From the NCBI GenBank assembly GCA_019634165.1, contig JAHQVT010000010.1, forward strand, positions 620,001 through 684,000: 64,000 nucleotides of DNA, written 5' to 3'. The notes under the pieces are model-generated. The model was not told the DNA's origin. It worked only from the letters and a program-made list of their open reading frames with translations, and made no database searches. The DNA comes from Rhodospirillales bacterium (lineage in GTDB: Bacteria > Pseudomonadota > Alphaproteobacteria > Rhodospirillales > Thalassospiraceae). The translations under genes and the position numbers were made by a program. Of the stretch, positions 14,991 to 39,600 are shown in pieces; position 1 is the stretch's first letter, and every line of letters starts with the position of its first letter.

Positions 14991-16229
14991 TTAAGCTTTG
15001 TCATTGATGATCAACTCATCAAGCTCATCCTCGCCAATCTGATCGGATTCGATCGGCGCATCGCCTTCGGGCCCGTCAATGATCATCGCTGCATCCGCCA
15101 TACCTTCGTCTTCTGGCAAAGTCGCATCAGCAATGTTTTCCAGCTCTGCTGTCAAGTCATCGTCACTGCCTGTATCGCCGTCGCCGTCACTACCGCCGTC
15201 AGATGCAGAATCAACATCGCTGTCATCATCTTCGATAAACATCGAGTCGAACTCGTTCTCTTCTGGGTTTACCGAATCATCCATTTCTTCATCGCTGCCC
15301 AGATCACTGGCTTTGCCATGCGTCAGGCGCTGTAAAATATCGTCGAGCTGTTCAAGCGTTTCATACCGAATGGAGATTTTTCCAGCAGCACCATCAAAGT
15401 CGATATTGACCGCTAACCCCAACATATTGCTAAGGTCACGCTCCAAAGACACTGTATCTGGGTCTTTATTCACGGAAGCCCCACCATTAGACTTCTTCGG
15501 GCGAGATGCTTTACCGCCATCTGTTTTGACCAGTTTTTCGGTCTGGCGAACATTCAAACCCTTTTTAACGATCTGACCGGCAAGCTCGACGGCATTTTCC
15601 GCGCCCAATAACGCACGTGCATGACCGGAGCTTAGAACCTTATCAGACAACATCTGCTTAATCGGTGATGGTAGTGCCAACAGACGCAAGCTATTGGCAA
15701 TGTGGCTTCGGCTTTTACCCAGCGCCTGCCCCAATGCTTCCTGCGTATGCGAAAATTCGCTCATCAGGCGGTTATAGCCTTCTGCCTCTTCAAGCGGCGA
15801 AAGGTCCTGACGTTGCAGGTTTTCGATTAGGGCAATTTCGGCCGTTTCGCGATCATCGAAATCACGTACTAAAACCGGAACTTCATGAAGCTGCGCACGC
15901 TGTGCTGCACGCCAGCGGCGCTCACCAGCAATGATTTCATAGGTGGTTTCGCCCGTCGAAGACGCACGCACAAGAATCGGCTGAATGATGCCTTTTTCGC
16001 GGATCGAAGCCGCCAGATCATCAATCGCTTCGTCGTCAAAATTGCTCCGCGGCTGAAACGGCGAAGGTCGCAGATCGGTAATTGCAATCAATTGGGTCGT
16101 ACCACCCGGCCCCGGATGAGCAGCAGGTGCAGTGTCGCCACCGGCAACCGCAACGCCAACATCCTCGTCTTCTTCCCCTAGAAGTGCCGAAAGCCCACGT
16201 CCCAAGCCGCGTTTCTTTGCATCACTCAT
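14991..16229 (-). CDS. parB: Chromosome-partitioning protein ParB with long acidic tail
   Basis: ParB binds parS and, as a CTP-dependent clamp, spreads along the origin region to drive segregation with ParA. The N-terminal ParA-contact motif is RGLGRGLSALLG. The CTP-binding/Srx-like domain has PFQPR and the box GERR at residues 102-105; the helix-turn-helix parS-binding segment is QEALGQALGKSRSHIANSLR; the dimerisation segment ends near residue 310 (TLEQLDDILQRLTH). After that comes a tail of about 100 residues made largely of Asp, Glu, Ser and Gly. This makes the protein 412 residues against about 290 usually. It overlaps parA by ATGA and is last in rsmG-parA-parB. Confidence 0.96.
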   Translation of the reverse strand: MSDAKKRGLGRGLSALLGEEDEDVGVAVAGGDTAPAAHPGPGGTTQLIAITDLRPSPFQPRSNFDDEAIDDLAASIREKGIIQPILVRASSTGETTYEIIAGERRWRAAQRAQLHEVPVLVRDFDDRETAEIALIENLQRQDLSPLEEAEGYNRLMSEFSHTQEALGQALGKSRSHIANSLRLLALPSPIKQMLSDKVLSSGHARALLGAENAVELAGQIVKKGLNVRQTEKLVKTDGGKASRPKKSNGGASVNKDPDTVSLERDLSNMLGLAVNIDFDGAAGKISIRYETLEQLDDILQRLTHGKASDLGSDEEMDDSVNPEENEFDSMFIEDDDSDVDSASDGGSDGDGDTGSDDDLTAELENIADATLPEDEGMADAAMIIDGPEGDAPIESDQIGEDELDELIINDKA

Positions 16230-17053
16230 GCTTTAACCCCTTCGCGTTTTAGGACTTCACTCGCAAGATTTAAATAGGCCTTCGACCCTGGGCACTTCAT
16301 GTCATAGACCAACACAGGGGTTCCGTGACTTGGCGCCTCAGACACACGTACATTGCGTGGAATGACAGTCCGGTACACCACATCACCGAAATAATCCCGC
16401 ACATCATTGGCGACCTGTGCCGACAGGTTATTACGCTTGTCATACATGGTCAGAACAATGCCCTGAATTTCAAGATCCGGATTGAAGGCCTTTTTAACCC
16501 GTTTGATGGTCCGGACCAGATGACTGATCCCTTCAAGCGCAAAGAATTCACATTGCAATGGCACCAAAACCGCATCTGATGCCACTAGCGCATTCAGGGT
16601 CAAAAGCCCCAAGGATGGCGGGCAATCGATTAGAACGTAATCAACATCCTGCGGCAATTTGGCCAGTGATTCTTTTAACTGCATTTCGCGGCGTTCAAAA
16701 TCGACCAATTCAATCTCGGCACCGGAAAGGTCCATGCCGGATGGCACAATCGTCAAACGCGGGATCGATGTATCCTGACGCGCTTCTTCCAACGAATTGC
16801 CATTAATCAGCACATCATAAGAGCTGATCTCTCGATCAGATGAACGCAACCCAAGACCGGTACTGGCATTCCCCTGCGGATCAAGATCAACAATCAAAAC
16901 CCGCTGGTTAACTGCAGCAAGTGCCGTTGCCAAGTTAATCGTGGTGGTGGTTTTCCCAACCCCGCCCTTTTGATTGGCAACTGCGATGATACGGGGGCGA
17001 TGTTCAGCGCCCTTAGACTGGGTCGAAAGCGGCAAGTCAATTACATCAGTCAC
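16226..17053 (-). CDS. parA: Chromosome-partitioning ATPase ParA
   Basis: A 275-residue deviant Walker ATPase that forms a nucleoid-bound gradient pulling ParB-parS complexes apart. The deviant Walker A KGGVGKTT lies at 29-36 with its signature lysine, Walker B is at YVLIDCPPSLGLLTLNAL, and the DNA-binding arginine region is TVIPRNVRVSEAPSHG. Its ends overlap both neighbours: the parB start by ATGA, and the rsmG stop by a few bases. The three genes are therefore one translationally coupled unit. The operon sits beside three parS sites. Confidence 0.97.
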   Translation of the reverse strand: MTDVIDLPLSTQSKGAEHRPRIIAVANQKGGVGKTTTTINLATALAAVNQRVLIVDLDPQGNASTGLGLRSSDREISSYDVLINGNSLEEARQDTSIPRLTIVPSGMDLSGAEIELVDFERREMQLKESLAKLPQDVDYVLIDCPPSLGLLTLNALVASDAVLVPLQCEFFALEGISHLVRTIKRVKKAFNPDLEIQGIVLTMYDKRNNLSAQVANDVRDYFGDVVYRTVIPRNVRVSEAPSHGTPVLVYDMKCPGSKAYLNLASEVLKREGVKA

Positions 17054-17685
17054 CGGCCAACTCCTTTTAAGATCATCACGACACCGTCCGGGTCCACTAG
17101 GCTGGCATGCGTGGTTACATCAAATGTCCAACCGGCTTCGCGTGCGTCAGCCAGCTCATCCTCAAAGGCACGTCCCTTCAGCAGCACATAATGGCCGCCG
17201 GCTTTTAAATGTCTTTGGCCAAGTTCAAGAAGCTTTGGCAAAGGCGCAAAGGCCCGCGCCGTAATCACATCAGCGTCGCGCGGTGCCGCAGCTTCGATCC
17301 GTTCCCGAGCAATTTCGGTCTGATCTAACACGCCGCAAACGCGGGCTGCTTCCATCAGAAAGACGGTTTTCTTGGTGTTGGATTCCATCATCGTGACATT
17401 TCCAGCGCCTAAAATCGCTAAAACGATCCCAGGAAATCCTGCGCCAGAACCAAAATCAACGATTTTCCCGTCCGCAGCGACATCCTGCAGATACGGCCAA
17501 AGCTGTGCAGAATCCTGTAAATGACGTCCCCAAACGTCTTCTGCCGTGCTGGCGCCAACGATATTAATACGCGGCTGCCACTTAACGACAAGATCTGCAT
17601 AAAGGCTCAAACGGTCCAATGTTTCACGTGAAACATTCAAATCGCGCTCAAACCATGTTTTTACGGGTGCGGAAATGGATTGCAT
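17050..17685 (-). CDS. rsmG: 16S rRNA (guanine-527-N7)-methyltransferase
   Basis: RsmG (GidB) methylates G527 of 16S rRNA using SAM; its loss gives low-level streptomycin resistance. The SAM motif is VDFGSGAGFPGIVLAI and the family segment ARAFAPLPKLLELG is present. ATG 17685 (MQSISAPVKTWF) is chosen; the frame stays open to 17811, but that extension is not family-like and begins at a parS site. Near the N-terminus, NVSRETL is encoded by a perfect parS site (17620-17635), so the DNA serves both protein and partition. It is first in the rsmG-parA-parB operon. Confidence 0.94.
   Translation of the reverse strand: MQSISAPVKTWFERDLNVSRETLDRLSLYADLVVKWQPRINIVGASTAEDVWGRHLQDSAQLWPYLQDVAADGKIVDFGSGAGFPGIVLAILGAGNVTMMESNTKKTVFLMEAARVCGVLDQTEIARERIEAAAPRDADVITARAFAPLPKLLELGQRHLKAGGHYVLLKGRAFEDELADAREAGWTFDVTTHASLVDPDGVVMILKGVGR
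17620..17635. promoter_or_regulatory. parS site 1, inside rsmG
   Basis: TGTTTCACGTGAAACA, a perfect 16-bp palindrome identical to the bacterial chromosomal parS consensus, embedded in the rsmG reading frame where it encodes the VSRET residues. It is the loading site for ParB encoded 1.4 kb away. Confidence 0.95.
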
Positions 17686-17790
17686 AAATGATTTATACGT
17701 CCAGTTTGAAAAACAAACCAGACTTGTTTTCCAAACTTCATCACTTTTCGGCATATCCGACAGGATAAAAGCGCCGAAAAATACGCCAAA

Positions 17791-17806
17791 TGTTTCACGT
17801 GAAACA
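17791..17806. promoter_or_regulatory. parS site 2
   Basis: TGTTTCACGTGAAACA, identical to site 1, about 105 bases upstream of the chosen rsmG start. Its place in the operon's upstream region means ParB bound here could also affect transcription of its own operon. Confidence 0.95.
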
Positions 17807-18064
17807 CTCACATCATCTTATTTGATCACCGCCCCTCGTATTTTAGGCCTTTACACGGAAAGGACTAATACGGATCAGACAGCCAAATCGAAAGATACCT
17901 TCCTTGCATCGGTTAGCTGCACTGCCCCCTCCGACTTCATACTCTTCATACTCTTCCTCCCATCGTCGAAAATACGGGATTGCTGTGAAGAGGGATGAAG
18001 GGACAGAAGAGACGTGAACAGAGAAAGCTAAAAACGACTCGGACAGACACCCCCGAACCGATAC

Positions 18065-18094
18065 CAAAAAACCCGGCTGCACAGCAACCGGGTT
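18065..18094 (-). terminator. Intrinsic terminator of mnmG
   Basis: AACCCGG (18070-18076) pairs with CCGGGTT (18088-18094), with a smaller inner pairing in the loop. The adjacent A5 run gives a U tail on the - strand. Confidence 0.75.
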
Positions 18095-18130
18095 CATGAA
18101 GGCCAGATGGCCAGAATTGACTATCAAAAA

Positions 18131-20032
18131 TTAGGCACTGCGTGCCTGGCTCTTGCCCATATGCTTATGGCTTTTGATATGACCCAACAGTGCAGTTACA
18201 GCCGCAGGGGTAACACCGGGAATACGTGATGCCGCGCCAATGGTTTCCGGCTGGATTTCTTTAAGCTTAAGCCGGATCTCTACCGATAGGCTTCCGACCT
18301 TATCAAAATCAAGATCACGCGGTAGACGCAATTCTTCATCACGACGGAAAGCGGCAACATCAGCAGCCTGACGATCAAGATACCCTTTATATTGGGCATC
18401 AATCGCCACCTGTTCCTTGATCGCAGGATCAAGTTCGGCAAGCTGCGGCCAGACTTTTATGATGGTTGAAAAATCAATGTCGGGATATGCCAACAGGTCA
18501 TAGGCACTGCGACGCACCCCGTCCTGATTAATCTTGATCCCAAACTTGGCCAACGCATTTGGTGTTTCTGCCAGATTGGAAACTTGATCTTTGGCAGCAT
18601 GAAGTGCTGCTTTTTTATCGCCCCAAACCTGTTCACGGGTTGATGCAACACAGCCAATATCAAGCCCCCGATCGGTTAGGCGTTGGTCGGCATTGTCGGC
18701 CCGCATCATCAAGCGATATTCCGCACGCGAGGTAAACATACGATACGGCTCACGCGTACCAAGTGTAACCAGATCATCGATCATGACACCGATATAGGCA
18801 TCCGCACGATCAAGGATGAATTCACGTTCGCCTCCATCTGCCACCAACGCAGCATTCACACCCGCGATAAGCCCCTGCCCGGCAGCTTCTTCGTAACCGG
18901 TCGTGCCATTGATCTGACCAGCAAAGAACAAAGCCCCGACCTTTTTCGTCTCCAGCGTATGGCGTAATTCACGTGGATCAACGAAGTCATACTCAACAGC
19001 ATAGCCCGGACGGAAAACCTTGACCTTCTCAAGCCCAGGAATGGTGACCAGCATCGCAAGCTGGACATCTTCGGGAAGCGAGGTCGAAATACCGTTTGGA
19101 TAGATCGTCGGATCATCCAAGCCTTCTGGCTCAAGGAAAATCTGATGCTGATTCTTTTCAGCAAAGCGAACGACCTTATCTTCAATTGATGGGCAATAGC
19201 GCGGGCCGCTGCTTGTGATCTGGCCGCTATACATCGGCGCCCGATGAAGGTTGGCACGAATGATTTCGTGGGTTGCTTCGGTCGTCCAAGTCATATGGCA
19301 CGAAATCTGCGGAACAGTAATTTCCTTGGTCAGGAAGGAAAACGGATCAGGTGGCGTATCGCCCGGCTGTTCCTGAAAGCTGCTCCAATCAATGGTCCGC
19401 CCATCCAGACGTGCCGGTGTGCCGGTTTTAAGACGACCTAATTTGAAATCGTATTTTTCCAGCGTATCGGAAAGACCCATGGCCGGTGCATCGCCGATGC
19501 GACCTGCAGGCGTGGTCTTTTCACCAATATGAATAAGCCCGCGCAAGAATGTCCCAGCGGTCAGCACCACCGCACCGGCGCGATATTCCGTGCCATCACC
19601 AGTGATCACCCCGGCGACACGATTGGTCGCATCAATGATCAGGTCTTCGACGCCGCCTTCAAGGATTGTAAGGTTTTCTTGATTGGCCAGAATATCCTGA
19701 ACCGCTTGGCGATAAAGTTTGCGATCTGCCTGTGCGCGTGGCCCGCGAACAGCCGGCCCCTTGGAACGGTTAAGCATACGGAACTGAATGCCGGCCCGGT
19801 CAATTGCGCGGCCCATGACACCGTCAAGCGCATCAACTTCGCGAACCATATGTCCTTTGCCCAAACCACCAATGGCCGGGTTACAGGACATTTCACCAAT
19901 GCGGTCTGCCCGATGCGTGACAAGAGCTGTTTGCGCCCCCATGCGTGCAGCAGCAGCCGCGGCTTCGCAGCCAGCATGTCCACCGCCAACAACAATCACA
20001 TCAAAACGGCTATGCGACACATTCTGTGACAT
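18131..20032 (-). CDS. mnmG: tRNA uridine-5-carboxymethylaminomethyl synthesis protein MnmG
   Basis: FAD enzyme (GidA) that with MnmE modifies the wobble uridine (cmnm5U34) of several tRNAs. The N-terminal dinucleotide fold is [19 protein letters not shown], then [20 protein letters not shown], the catalytic-region [11 protein letters not shown], and the C-terminal helical domain ending in [18 protein letters not shown] 20032 is preferred to the GTG twelve bases upstream because GAGGA lies at proper spacing before it. The length of about 633 is normal. It lies downstream of mnmE on the same strand with parS site 3 between them, as in many bacteria near the origin. Confidence 0.97.
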
Positions 20033-20123
20033 CGAATTCCTCACTCAATCCCCTATCAGCACATCTGACGGGTTTGAACCTTGTCTGGTTCGAATAGGCT
20101 TATTCGGCCCATCGACGGGCCAA

Positions 20124-20139
20124 TGTTTCACGTGAAACA
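20124..20139. promoter_or_regulatory. parS site 3
   Basis: TGTTTCACGTGAAACA, perfect, in the 130-base gap between mnmG and mnmE. Together with sites 1 and 2 it gives three sites within 2.5 kb. Confidence 0.95.
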
Positions 20140-20162
20140 TTTCTAGGGAACAGTCCCTGATC

Positions 20163-21536
20163 TTATTTGCCGATACAGAAGTCCCCGAAGATAATATCGA
20201 GCAAATCTTCTACATCGACACGTCCGGTAATCTTGCCAATTTCGCGCACTGCAAGGCGTACATCCTCGGCAGCGAGTTCAGCGATATCGGTCTGCATTCC
20301 GCGATCCAAATGGTCGCTGGCACTTTCAAGTGCCCGCCGGTGCCTGATACGCGTTAGGGGCACTGGCCCGGCAAAATCGAGCCCCTCTTTTACGCGAGTC
20401 TCCAGCAGTTGCAAGAGGGTTTCCATCCCAAGCCCGGTCATGGCCGATATGGTCAAAACGGGAAGCTCAAGAGCATGACCTTCAACCGAAGCGCCCTGCC
20501 AGACTTTCGGGATTGCCGTCCCACCGTCATCATCGACCTTGTTGATCAGGATAAGGGTATTGGCATCAATCACCCGTGCAGCTTCTGGATCAATATTTGG
20601 CCAGTCGTCACGGTCAATAACCACCAAACGAAGATCGGCATTTTCCGCCCGTTCCGTCGCCCGGCGCACGCCTTCAGATTCAATGGCATCGCCGCTTTCA
20701 CGCAGGCCCGCCGTATCCACCATCGTCACCGGGAAACCACCAAGATCAAGATGCACTTCGATCATATCGCGTGTGGTACCTGCGATCTCGGAAACGATCG
20801 CGGCATCGCGCTGTGCAAGACGGTTCAGCAGGCTGGATTTACCGGCATTGGGCGCACCCAGAATAACAATCTGGAACCCTTCGCGCAGGCGTTCCCCGCG
20901 GCGGTTATCGGCCAGATGGCGTTTAACTTCGTCATTCACAGCAGTCAAATCACCGCGCACGACCGGCACAATACCATCAGGTAAATCTTCATCCGGGAAA
21001 TCGATATCGGCTTCGATATGGGCCAATGCCTTCATCAGACGCGCCCGCCAGCCTTCATACAGGCTGCCGAGTTCACCGGCCATCTGGCGCACAGCCTGAC
21101 GGCGCTGGGCGGCGGTTTCAGCATCAATCAGATCGGCAATGCCTTCAGCCGAGGTTAAGTCCATTTTGCCATTTTCAAACGCACGGCGGGTGTATTCACC
21201 AGGATCGGCAATGCGCAAACCGTCTTGGCGCGACAGGCAATCAAGAACGCCTTCAATCACTGCCCGCCCGCCATGAACATGCAGCTCAACCACATCTTCA
21301 CCGGTAAAGCTTGCCGGACCTTTGAAATAGATCGCCACCGCATCATCAAGCCGCTCAGCCGATAACGGATCACGGATTGGCGCATAAACCGCATGACGCA
21401 GTTTGGGGACTTCGTCGCGGCCCAAAAGCGCACAAAGCGTCGGCCCGGACAACGGCCCGGACAAGCGGATTACGGCAACACCGGCACGCCCGGCCCCCGA
21501 TGACAGGGCAAAGATGGTTTCTCGGCTTGCAATCAT
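20163..21536 (-). CDS. mnmE: tRNA modification GTPase MnmE
   Basis: Partner of MnmG in wobble-uridine modification. The N-terminal folate-binding domain starts MIASRETIFALSSGAGRAGV. The inserted G domain has the P-loop GAPNAGKSSLLN, the switch segment IAGTTRDMIEV, DTAGLRE and NKVDDD. The C-terminus ends in the conserved FCIGK with the catalytic cysteine. ATG 21536 is used because it starts the family-typical sequence; the open frame extends upstream to 21590 without similarity. The length is 457. The gene is transcribed toward mnmG. Confidence 0.97.
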   Translation of the reverse strand: MIASRETIFALSSGAGRAGVAVIRLSGPLSGPTLCALLGRDEVPKLRHAVYAPIRDPLSAERLDDAVAIYFKGPASFTGEDVVELHVHGGRAVIEGVLDCLSRQDGLRIADPGEYTRRAFENGKMDLTSAEGIADLIDAETAAQRRQAVRQMAGELGSLYEGWRARLMKALAHIEADIDFPDEDLPDGIVPVVRGDLTAVNDEVKRHLADNRRGERLREGFQIVILGAPNAGKSSLLNRLAQRDAAIVSEIAGTTRDMIEVHLDLGGFPVTMVDTAGLRESGDAIESEGVRRATERAENADLRLVVIDRDDWPNIDPEAARVIDANTLILINKVDDDGGTAIPKVWQGASVEGHALELPVLTISAMTGLGMETLLQLLETRVKEGLDFAGPVPLTRIRHRRALESASDHLDRGMQTDIAELAAEDVRLAVREIGKITGRVDVEDLLDIIFGDFCIGK

Positions 21537-21662
21537 GTTTCGTCCGTCATTCTTGTGGTCGCCGACCCGGACAATGCCGCGCACGAGCAATATTGAAATT
21601 CTATGCTGTCGATATCGTTCAGACAGAGCAAAAGGTCAACATATCGCTTTGTCTGAAAACGA

Positions 21663-37066: not shown

Positions 37067-37891
37067 TTAGTGACCGCGACGGTCATACATGGTGGCCAAA
37101 ATCATGGCCGCGGTTTCTTCGATCGATCGGCGGGTAACATTGATAATCTTCCATCCGCGATCGGTAAAATAACGCCTTGCCTGATGCACTTCATCGCGCA
37201 CGGCTACCGGATCAACGTAATCGCCCCCTTCACCACGTTCGATCTGGCGCAGACGGTTTTTACGGATTGAAACCAATTGATCAACATCCTTGATCAGGCC
37301 AACCACCAACGGTTTTTTCAATTGATCCAGTTCAGGAGGCAATGGGCATCCCGGTACAAAAGGAATGTTGGCAGTCTTGATCCCACGATTTGCAAGATAG
37401 ACCGAGGTCGGGGTTTTTGATGTTCGCGACACGCCGACAATCACGACATCGGCTTCTTCAAGATCCCAACCAGATTGGCCATCATCATGCGATAATGTGT
37501 AATCAATCGCCTCGATCCGGCTGAAATATTCTTCATCCATTTTATGAAGTGCGCCGGTCCGACCGCGCGACTGTTGGCCAAGATAACCGGCCATCATGGT
37601 GACTGTATTATCCAAAACATGGCTATGGGGCACCTGAAGTCGACGACATCCTTCTTCGAGTTTGCGGCGAATATCGCTGTCAAACACGGTGTAAAGGACA
37701 ATCCCCGGATTGCGTTCGATATCTGCCAAAACACGGGCAAGCTGCGCATCGGTTCGGATCAGTGACCAGACATGTTCATGGGCACGCACATCAGGAAATT
37801 GCGCAATACAGGCGCGCGCCACACCATCAACGGTTTCACCGGTTGAGTCTGAAACCAGATGAAGATGGAAAATTTTATCTGTTTCAACCAT
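37067..37891 (-). CDS. ppsR: Pyruvate, phosphate dikinase / PEP synthase regulatory protein
   Basis: A DUF299-family bifunctional kinase/phosphorylase that switches PpdK or PpsA by ADP-dependent phosphorylation. N-terminal signature HLHLVSDSTGETVDG, the P-loop GVSRTSKTPTSVYLANRG, and RYFTDRGWKIINVTRRSIEE near the end. Start MVETDKIFHLHL chosen; upstream in-frame sequence runs into the origin region. First in the leftward series from oriC. Confidence 0.93.
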   Translation of the reverse strand: MVETDKIFHLHLVSDSTGETVDGVARACIAQFPDVRAHEHVWSLIRTDAQLARVLADIERNPGIVLYTVFDSDIRRKLEEGCRRLQVPHSHVLDNTVTMMAGYLGQQSRGRTGALHKMDEEYFSRIEAIDYTLSHDDGQSGWDLEEADVVIVGVSRTSKTPTSVYLANRGIKTANIPFVPGCPLPPELDQLKKPLVVGLIKDVDQLVSIRKNRLRQIERGEGGDYVDPVAVRDEVHQARRYFTDRGWKIINVTRRSIEETAAMILATMYDRRGH

Positions 37892-38070
37892 GGCCCATCC
37901 GTCTTTTGGCGATTTTTGCCGATGCAAGGGTACAGTTATCCACTTTTTGCAGCCCAAGCGATTTTTGAACTTATTATTTTAGGTGTTCGATATTTCGATC
38001 ACTACCCGGATGGATAAGGTATATTAGCCCAACCCGGAGTTACGAATCCGGAGTCGGGCCTGTGGACAAT

Positions 38071-38079
38071 TGTGGATAA
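38071..38079 (-). promoter_or_regulatory. Perfect DnaA box
   Basis: TGTGGATAA on +, that is TTATCCACA on the - strand, adjoining a one-mismatch copy TGTGGACAA (38061-38069). Part of the candidate oriC. Confidence 0.85.
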
Positions 38080-38372
38080 CGGGAGCGACTCCGGTGCAAA
38101 CTTTTCCACAGGAATTATCCTCCACGTCATACAAACTTTCTCAAGATGCCTGTCCCGACAGGGATAAGTGTTTATTTTTTCCCGTAATAGCAGGGATAAC
38201 ATCACAAAAACCAGCCTTATTCACGTTATCCACGTTATTCAAAACTGGCTTTTCCCAAGGTAGAGTCTGAGAGTCGTTTGGAGTCGTGCACAGTTTTCCC
38301 CAAATCGACTTGAGATGAATCATTTTTCCCGAGTCGGAATGTGAATAAACTGTGCGTTAAATTTAATCCCTG

Positions 38373-38381
38373 TTATCCACA
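38373..38381 (+). promoter_or_regulatory. Perfect DnaA box
   Basis: TTATCCACA, followed at once by GTATCCACC (38383-38391), next to the AT-rich candidate unwinding element. Part of the candidate oriC. Confidence 0.85.
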
Positions 38382-38562
38382 GGTATCCACCTACAAACAA
38401 CATCCTTTTTTATTAAATAAGGTTTTGGTAGGCAGAACGTGGAAAACGTCCCGGCCAAGGCCACAGGACAAAATTCACGAAATTAGAAAACTGGTTCTGA
38501 TCCTTTGGGTCAAAGCTCGGAACCAGATAAAAATCGATCGGGAAAGACGAACAGGAAACCAA

Positions 38563-39600
38563 ATGCCCAACACCAAAAAGACTTTCTTGCGTGCCCTAGA
38601 TGGCGAAACACTCTCCGTGCCGCCAATCTGGCTGATGCGCCAAGCAGGTCGATATCTGCCAGAATACCGTGCAACCCGCGGCGAGGCAGGATCATTTCTT
38701 GATCTTTGCTATAATCCCGATCTTGCCTGCGAAGTAACCTTGCAGCCCCTACGGCGCTATGACTTCGATGCGGCAATTTTGTTCTCCGATATCCTGGTTA
38801 TACCGCAGGCACTTGGACAACATTTGGCATTCAAGCAAGGTGAAGGCCCACAGCTTGACGCCATCCGAGATGCTTCAGGTCTTGGTGAATTATCGGTTGA
38901 TGGCATCCATGACACCCTTGGACCCATCTACGAGACCGTTTCAAAGCTTTCTAGCGCTATCCCCGCTCATACAGCCCTCATCGGGTTCGCAGGTTCCCCA
39001 TGGACTGTGGCGACCTATATGGTCGAAGGCAAAGGCAGCAAGGATTTTGCCAATATCCGTCGTTTTGCCTATGGCGATCCCGAAGGTTTTGGCAAATTGA
39101 TCGATATTGTGATTGAAGCAACCACGCAATATCTGCTCAAACAGGTTGAAGCCGGGGCAGAATGCATTCAGCTGTTTGAAACCTGGGGCGGTGTGTTGTC
39201 TGAAACCGGCTTTAATCGCTGGGTGATCGAGCCGACCAAACAGATCGTTGCCAATTTGCGCAAAGTTCATCCTGATTTGCCGATTATCGGTTTTCCGCGT
39301 GGTGCGGGTCTTCATCTAATTGATTTTAAAATCAAAACCGGTGTGACCGCTGTTGGTCTTGATAGTGGTGTCAAGCTCGACTGGGTGGCTGAAAACCTTC
39401 AAAAACTGGGTCCAGTGCAGGGCAATCTTGATCCGATGCTGCTGATTACGGGCGGGGATGCAATGTTTGATGAAACCAGACGCATTCTTGATACGCTGGG
39501 CAAAGGGCCGTTTATCTTTAACCTTGGTCACGGCATTACCCCGGAAACGCCGCCGGAAAATGTCGATAAGCTTGTGAAATTTATCAGGAATCAGCACTGA
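38563..39600 (+). CDS. hemE: Uroporphyrinogen decarboxylase
   Basis: Converts uroporphyrinogen III to coproporphyrinogen III in heme synthesis. The signature [20 protein letters not shown] lies at about 17-36, with [12 protein letters not shown] and the conserved [13 protein letters not shown] and [17 protein letters not shown] 38563 ([15 protein letters not shown]) with AGGAA upstream gives 345 residues; the longer open frame would include origin DNA. First of hemE-hemH-hemJ running rightward from the origin. Confidence 0.97.

Follow-up and report, generated by a model that had tools for sequence, protein, structure and literature searches.

A probable hemE-type replication origin in a Rhodospirillales bacterium carries a conserved array of GAGTCG boxes among its DnaA boxes

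We identified in the gap between the ppsR and hemE genes of a Rhodospirillales bacterium a region (37892-38562, 671 bp) that is very probably the chromosomal origin of replication, of the Caulobacter (hemE-COG1806) positional type and equipped with arrays of DnaA and GAGTCG boxes. The gap lies in a 64,000-nucleotide stretch (hereafter, the window) of a genome assembled in 15 contigs (4.28 Mb). It is an ordinary, well-supported hemE-type origin plus a second conserved box array, which was overlooked in the initial annotation. The GAGTCG boxes are interleaved with the DnaA boxes and are under equally strong constraint. The flanking genes match Pfam families PF01208 (hemE) and PF03618 (ppsR), the latter of which we take to be the DUF299 or COG1806 gene of the literature. 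hemE and COG1806 are described as the bounds of Caulobacter Cori and of the Rickettsia origin, and some origins are predicted for Wolbachia and its kin (PMC1914354). The gap sits between the same two genes, as in Cori, and combines a cluster of DnaA boxes, a sign change in GC skew and an AT-rich unwinding region, all of which support the origin proposed in the initial annotation.

The change in GC skew that was expected at the gap was found. Up to 39.0 kb, 32 of 39 1-kb bins had negative skew, and beyond that point 24 of 25 had positive skew; the cumulative minimum was at 38982, 420 bp beyond the gap. The pattern extended to the 794-kb contig, where skew was negative in all 13 stretches to the left of the gap and positive in all 5 to the right (a count that leaves out the 2-kb stretch L099). 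Further, a congener assembled as a single 4.70-Mb contig (G012) carries hemE in reverse orientation at 309-310 kb and has its skew flip at the same hemE gap. Skew in this genome was slightly positive in the first 20 kb, negative between 120 and 308 kb, positive between 311 kb and 2.39 Mb except at 1.02 Mb, and negative again between 2.64 and 4.52 Mb. The second flip thus falls between 2.39 and 2.64 Mb, and the point opposite the gap is at ~2.66 Mb; 18 of the 20 stretches fit one origin at the hemE gap with a terminus opposite, and two do not. The strand bias of the genes, also invoked in the initial annotation as a sign of diverging forks, was not supported. Based on greedy ORF tiling rather than annotation, 21 of 36 ORFs on the left are on the minus strand (including every one in the run near the gap, from ~27.5 to 38 kb) and only 12 of 29 on the right are on the plus strand. 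The bias is absent on the right; the argument for forks rests on GC skew.

Both of the perfect DnaA boxes (TTATCCACA) reported for the gap are present (Table 1), as are boxes with one mismatch, although these number five rather than four. With up to one mismatch allowed, the window holds 14 boxes against a mean of 13.2 in shuffled sequences, and hence no overall excess, yet seven of them sit in the gap, which makes up ~1% of the window. Stretches clear of the gap have at most one box per 671 bp, and the clustering has a Poisson probability of ~2.6e-10 at the window's own density (a rough figure). Perfect boxes number 22 in the whole genome, with 10 on the forward and 12 on the reverse strand, and do not outnumber the 26 copies of the reversed word (17 and 9), which is why we take the place of the boxes, not their number, as evidence. 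The TTATCC core is similarly concentrated, with 8 of the window's 37 copies in the gap compared to 0.39 expected. Alignment of the gap from 25 genus genomes (this one and 24 others, 59-85% identical to it) gave mean column identities of 0.89-0.996 for the six boxes from 38061 to 38373, which are recognisable in most of the genomes; in the box at 38226-38234, the TTATCC core forms a block in which no column falls below 92%. The perfect pair in the gap is unique in that no other two perfect boxes in the genome are closer than 4.4 kb. This spacing, the strong constraint on the boxes, the sharp skew switch and the position of the congener's second flip opposite the gap make it very improbable that the gap is a former or inactive origin, with replication now starting elsewhere, even with a genome in many contigs and an origin called from sequence.

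Table 1. Features of the candidate origin and of the linked parABS region (window coordinates; n/25, number of aligned genus genomes).
Feature	Position	Strand	Evidence or conservation
parB	14991..16229	-	Pfam ParB_N, HTH_ParB, ParB_C
parA	16226..17053	-	Pfam AAA_31, E 1.1e-64
parS, perfect	17620..17635	+	
parS, perfect	17791..17806	+	
parS, perfect	20124..20139	+	
ppsR (COG1806/DUF299, Kinase-PPPase), left boundary gene	37067..37891	-	Pfam PF03618, E 4.7e-90
Probable oriC (ppsR-hemE gap)	37892..38562	.	GC skew switch, DnaA box cluster, conservation in 25 congeners
DnaA box, 1 mismatch (TTATCCACT)	37936..37944	+	Same word 15/25, different or missing 10/25
TTATCC core, possible weak DnaA site	38012..38017	-	Motif count
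GAATC, unconserved GANTC site	38044..38048	.	1/25
GAGTCG box 1 (GANTC, CcrM-type)	38051..38056	+	GGAGTCG 25/25
DnaA box, 1 mismatch (TTGTCCACA)	38061..38069	-	Perfect TTATCCACA 18/25
DnaA box, perfect	38071..38079	-	Perfect 20/25
GAGTCG box 2	38086..38091	-	CGACTCC 25/25
DnaA box, 1 mismatch (TTTTCCACA)	38102..38110	+	Same word 21/25
TTATCC core, possible weak DnaA site, conserved block	38115..38120	+	Alignment of congeners
TTATCC core, possible weak DnaA site, conserved block	38162..38167	-	Alignment of congeners
TTATCC core in conserved block CAGGGATAA, possible weak DnaA site	38194..38199	-	Alignment of congeners
DnaA box, 1 mismatch (TTATCCACG)	38226..38234	+	Commonest form TTATCCCCA, 16/25
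GAGTC, partly conserved GANTC site	38263..38267	.	15/25
GAGTCG box 3	38271..38276	+	GANTC 24/25; one change to GAGTT
GAGTCG box 4	38281..38286	+	GANTC 24/25, once GATTC; one non-GANTC word
Conserved block CAGTTTTCCCCAA, contains TCCCCA (presumably the W-box word)	38291..38303	+	Block list of alignment
GAATC, partly conserved GANTC site	38317..38321	.	18/25
GAGTCG box 5	38331..38336	+	GANTC 25/25
DnaA box, 1 mismatch (TTATTCACA)	38340..38348	-	TTATTCACA 16/25, TTATCCACA 9/25
DnaA box, perfect, most conserved, beside unwinding region	38373..38381	+	TTATCCACA 24/25
Likely unwinding region: weak box TATCCACC, conserved ACAAACAACATCCTTTTT (38393-38410), AT-rich run (38405-38421)	38383..38421	+	
hemE (uroporphyrinogen decarboxylase), right boundary gene	38563..39600	+	Pfam PF01208, E 2.8e-116

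The second array came to light as eight GANTC sites in a 292-bp part of the gap, the densest such cluster in the window. Five of the eight carry the longer word GAGTCG and span 286 bp; their mean column identity is 0.988, compared to 0.888 for random 6-mers in 38040-38430 (P 0.0003). The window has few copies of the word (10 compared to 19 expected in shuffles), and half of them are in the gap, where 0.10 would be expected. The density of the word is 7.5 per kb in the gap as opposed to 0.09 between ORFs and 0.10 within ORFs in 384 kb outside it. The genome has a single direct GAGTCG pair with a spacing of 0-30 bases, and it lies in the gap. Close pairs are no commoner genome-wide than those of a reversed-pattern control (1 versus 3), and because the control has three places, it is the place of the pair and not its number that is telling. 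Twenty-one of the 25 genus genomes with a known hemE place have such a pair ~300 bp before hemE; the remaining four (G005, G009, G015 and G020) lack it there. An identical 16-base word is also present in a 26th genome, G396, whose hemE is unplaced. Further GAGTCG pairs number 0-3 in each of the genus genomes, and control places 2-13. Among the matches listed in the open-licence literature (titles, word counts and abstract starts), we found no report of GAGTCG boxes at an origin; in one search, the 20 matches listed out of 990 had no occurrence of the word.

Ten other families of the order were sampled, and the array recurred in only one of them (f17). All six f17 gaps, which are from genus g17, have three CGACTC boxes in the same places and without variation, in an alignment that has only 38% of its columns invariant. 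Ten invariant blocks of at least 6 start in the first 300 columns: three are the CGACTC boxes and seven are DnaA-like (GGATAA, TTATCCCC, ATCCACA, TGTGGAT, a long block with TTATCCACAGG, and GGACAA and GGGGACA, the last two taken as DnaA-like by resemblance). The f17 boxes all point one way, and we rejected on these grounds a hairpin role for the boxes, even though boxes 1 and 2 of the window form an inverted pair. The nine further families (f3, f5, f6, f15, f18, f160, f163, f164 and f166; 20 loci) yielded one f160 locus with two GAGTCG words, one f18 locus with one, and none in the rest. Overall, 84 genomes of the order had hemE and the gap was inspected in 26 non-genus loci, L161 being one of them. 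Two or more GAGTCG words were found in 6 of 108 gaps elsewhere in the class. A metagenome-assembled Phyllobacteriaceae genome (L078), far from the window's order, has five GAGTCG words in a 424-bp gap and none in the flanks, an array possibly of independent descent. We could not uphold a shared ancestry of the f1 and f17 arrays, which a two-gene tree does not join. The tree has partly weak branches, an outgroup placed inside and 6 of 35 rows with one protein only, and the arrays are compatible with either one or two origins.

The parA and parB genes and the three parS sites that the initial annotation placed ~18-20 kb from the gap are present as described. Five parS matches were recovered from the window when allowing up to three mismatches, a number reached by none of 100 shuffles. 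The genes are part of a trmE-gidA-gidB-parA-parB cluster (14991-21590) on the ppsR side of the origin; the Caulobacter cluster is, we assume, on the hemE side. The region between gidB and gidA, by the parS sites and upstream of gidB-parA-parB (17620-18131), contains a GAGTCG at 18035, and two or three copies are found between the same genes in four congeners (L273-L276) chosen for having GAGTCG pairs there. Another DnaA/GANTC locus lies ~280 kb to the left of the origin, at ~377.9-378.3 kb of contig C10 (G000:C10 ~377861-378280; L089 17861-18280), and nowhere else in the 386 kb sampled, apart from the origin, are three one-mismatch DnaA boxes found within 450 bp. Among GANTC clusters this locus ranks second in density, with 7 sites of mixed words in 300 bp, two of them CGACTCG, and it is upstream of a DnaJ-like ORF (Pfam match below cut-off). 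In the two congeners examined (G012 and G009), the corresponding gap retains a core of two GANTC sites that face each other, with CATTCACAGG or CATCCACAGG after them, but the box set is incomplete. The C10 locus may be a promoter controlled by DnaA and CcrM or a site that titrates DnaA.

CcrM methylates GANTC. The genome encodes this methylase (a 399-aa ORF with a RAMA match) as well as GcrA, and the gap supplies the GANTC sites. GcrA acts as a promoter factor at methylated GANTC (PMC3667746), raising the possibility that the GAGTCG boxes are GcrA-CcrM promoter elements of hemE or ppsR and are in the origin by chance. The copy at 18035 does resemble a promoter element in its position upstream of gidB-parA-parB, as in the four congeners. 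An array of five boxes that extends over 286 bp, uses both orientations and is mixed with DnaA boxes would however make an unusual promoter layout, and a simple (weak) sigma-70 scan of 37800-38700 found no promoter-like site. Nor did GAGTCG qualify as a general promoter word, as only 4 of 38 sites in the 384 kb outside the origin are between ORFs, which is no enrichment (the count is low because the site at 18035 escaped the crude ORF mask). We regard the promoter explanation as rather unlikely.

Among 16 gapped palindromes, GANTC had the highest observed/expected ratio both in the gaps of the genus (2.76) and in those of the class (1.78). The class-wide enrichment does not behave as a CcrM signature, being 1.65 in the 42 gaps from genomes with a RAMA match and 1.89 in the 21 from genomes that lack one (Mann-Whitney one-sided P 0.73), or 1.67 and 1.91, respectively, in the palindrome comparison. 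These gaps represent 63 of 100 loci, a divergent ppsR having gone undetected in 8 of 50 loci with RAMA and 29 of 50 without; for named loci, the figure was 35 of 80. For the RAMA-bearing sample, hemE was sought in 80 of 209 genomes and detected in 67, of which 50 were taken; the RAMA-less sample comprised 80 genomes, 56 with hemE, and contributed 50 loci from 49 genomes. A CcrM protein search of the 21 RAMA-less genomes returned nothing in 13 and partial or weak matches in 8. The longest good matches were 46% (G297) and 39% (G134) identical over ~245 residues of the methylase part; the remaining ones were short or less than 33% identical. By eye, some of the GANTC words of the class seem to belong to box-trio junctions or to AT-rich runs.

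Enrichment independent of CcrM is what would be expected if the boxes bound a lineage-specific origin protein with no role for methylation, the GANTC within GAGTCG being incidental. Moreover, the conserved word exceeds what CcrM needs, and the other three GANTC sites of the gap are kept in only 1, 15 and 18 of the 25 genomes. The changes in boxes 3 and 4 are indecisive in this respect (GATTC is still GANTC; GAGTT and one other word are not). The GANTC cluster at C10, the only other strong one in the 386 kb covered, combines three DnaA-like boxes with a mixture of GANTC words, which counts against this reading. A protein indifferent to methylation is, on balance, a doubtful though possible explanation. 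In Caulobacter, the GANTC sites near the origin remain hemimethylated longest, and the same study reports that deletion of ccrM leaves replication control unchanged (PMC3973325). For Agrobacterium, an action of CcrM on ori2 and no clear effect on the DnaA-dependent ori1 are described (PMC11514494). Reported GcrA motifs are YGAKTCG and YGAKTCK (PMC7987155). YGAKTCG fits one of the five conserved boxes (38330), and the other four have a purine first. The motif itself is in doubt because no extended GcrA motif was found in Brevundimonas (PMC7987155). We prefer a protein that reads the GAGTCG word itself because the enrichment is independent of CcrM, because of the results in Caulobacter and Agrobacterium, and because four of the five boxes depart from YGAKTCG. 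Such a reader is the safer inference, with linkage to methylation and its absence about evenly balanced.

The likely site of duplex opening is 38383-38421. We confirmed that its AT-rich run, noted in the initial annotation, is 88% AT, and of the 148 17-mers in the window that contain 15 or more A/T, 15 fall inside the gap. The block ACAAACAACATCCTTTTT is the longest conserved one in the gap; it lies shortly after the box at 38373 and extends into the AT-rich run. A strong box, a weak box and then a conserved track bordering the AT-rich run follow one another as in a basal unwinding system (BUS; DnaA boxes plus DnaA-trios), although the trio track of the window (ACAAACAACATCC) is, as in the genus, degenerate. 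Only the first trio (CTA) fits beside the strong box (by eye), and a run of ATC-CTT-TTT fits when counting from the weak second box (by eye, compared to PMC8287927). Thus, at least three 3'-NAN-5' trios no more than 16 bp from a box are found, by eye, only by counting from the weak box TATCCACC. Of 113 gaps from other Alphaproteobacteria, 52 contain the word CACTAC or ACTACC, with 76 of 83 matches (overlaps counted twice) on the hemE-sense strand. The matches are mostly within 140 bp of hemE and immediately ahead of an AT-rich run, a place like that of 38383-38421. These words resemble DnaA-trios (loci L003-L082 and L125-L229), and the tracks look clearer than the window's. A literature search combining DnaA-trios and Alphaproteobacteria returned, among the matches listed, only one study, of Epsilonproteobacteria. 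We used only the CACTAC/ACTACC listing because the looser word ACWACW failed its own control, both in the class (sense strand 56 of 113, antisense 3, reversed sequence 39 of 113) and in the genus (22 of 25 in sense and reversed sequence alike).

The gap shares with Caulobacter Cori its boundary genes, DnaA boxes and AT-rich region (PMC1914354) and an origin-linked parABS system (PMC4468827), and several GANTC motifs have been reported for Cori and its near relatives (PMC3973325, with reference to Shaheen 2009). The two perfect TTATCCACA boxes of the gap contrast with the G-boxes and W-boxes of Cori (PMC4468827); the GAGTCG array is another difference. The CtrA site TTAA-N7-TTAA does not occur in the window, and the single one-mismatch match in the gap (38346-38360) is not kept in the congener alignment (by eye). 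Exact matches to WATCAANNNNTTR, which we take to be the IHF consensus, number three in the window and none in the gap. We thus rejected CtrA and IHF control sites in the gap, which has no exact consensus match to either. The origins of repABC secondary replicons also have an excess of GANTC in cells with CcrM (PMC6090056, PMC11514494), but use RepC; the window's origin is of the DnaA type and keeps one fixed word, GAGTCG. The E. coli oriC (GATC/Dam/SeqA) is similar in having methylatable sites among DnaA boxes within a few hundred bp. Its site is GATC, as opposed to GANTC in the window's origin, and GATC is not enriched in the gap (3 compared to 4.9 expected). We know of no reader protein at the window's origin.

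From the known biology of initiation, DnaA would bind the seven full boxes and several of the TTATCC sites, the latter at half strength, and would open the duplex at 38383-38421, beside the best box at 38373, for helicase loading. Forks would then leave the origin in both directions, and the hemimethylation left by their passage could tell a reader of GAGTCG that the origin has fired. We infer from the array a second regulatory input on DnaA, possibly linked to methylation. Our tentative proposal for it is a GAGTCG-reading protein (GcrA or another factor), possibly sensitive to methylation, that tunes DnaA assembly. It is less probable, indeed unlikely, that GAGTCG marks a dedicated class of origin control in which a methylation-sensing reader hinders or licenses DnaA and the C10 cluster is a second site of the circuit. 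If true, these Alphaproteobacteria would have an analogue of Dam/SeqA where CtrA control is missing. The GANTC richness of hemE-type origins is not simply creditable to CcrM. A second class of sites, as well conserved as the DnaA boxes and clustered at the origin, provides a concrete target for finding the protein that may bind GAGTCG.
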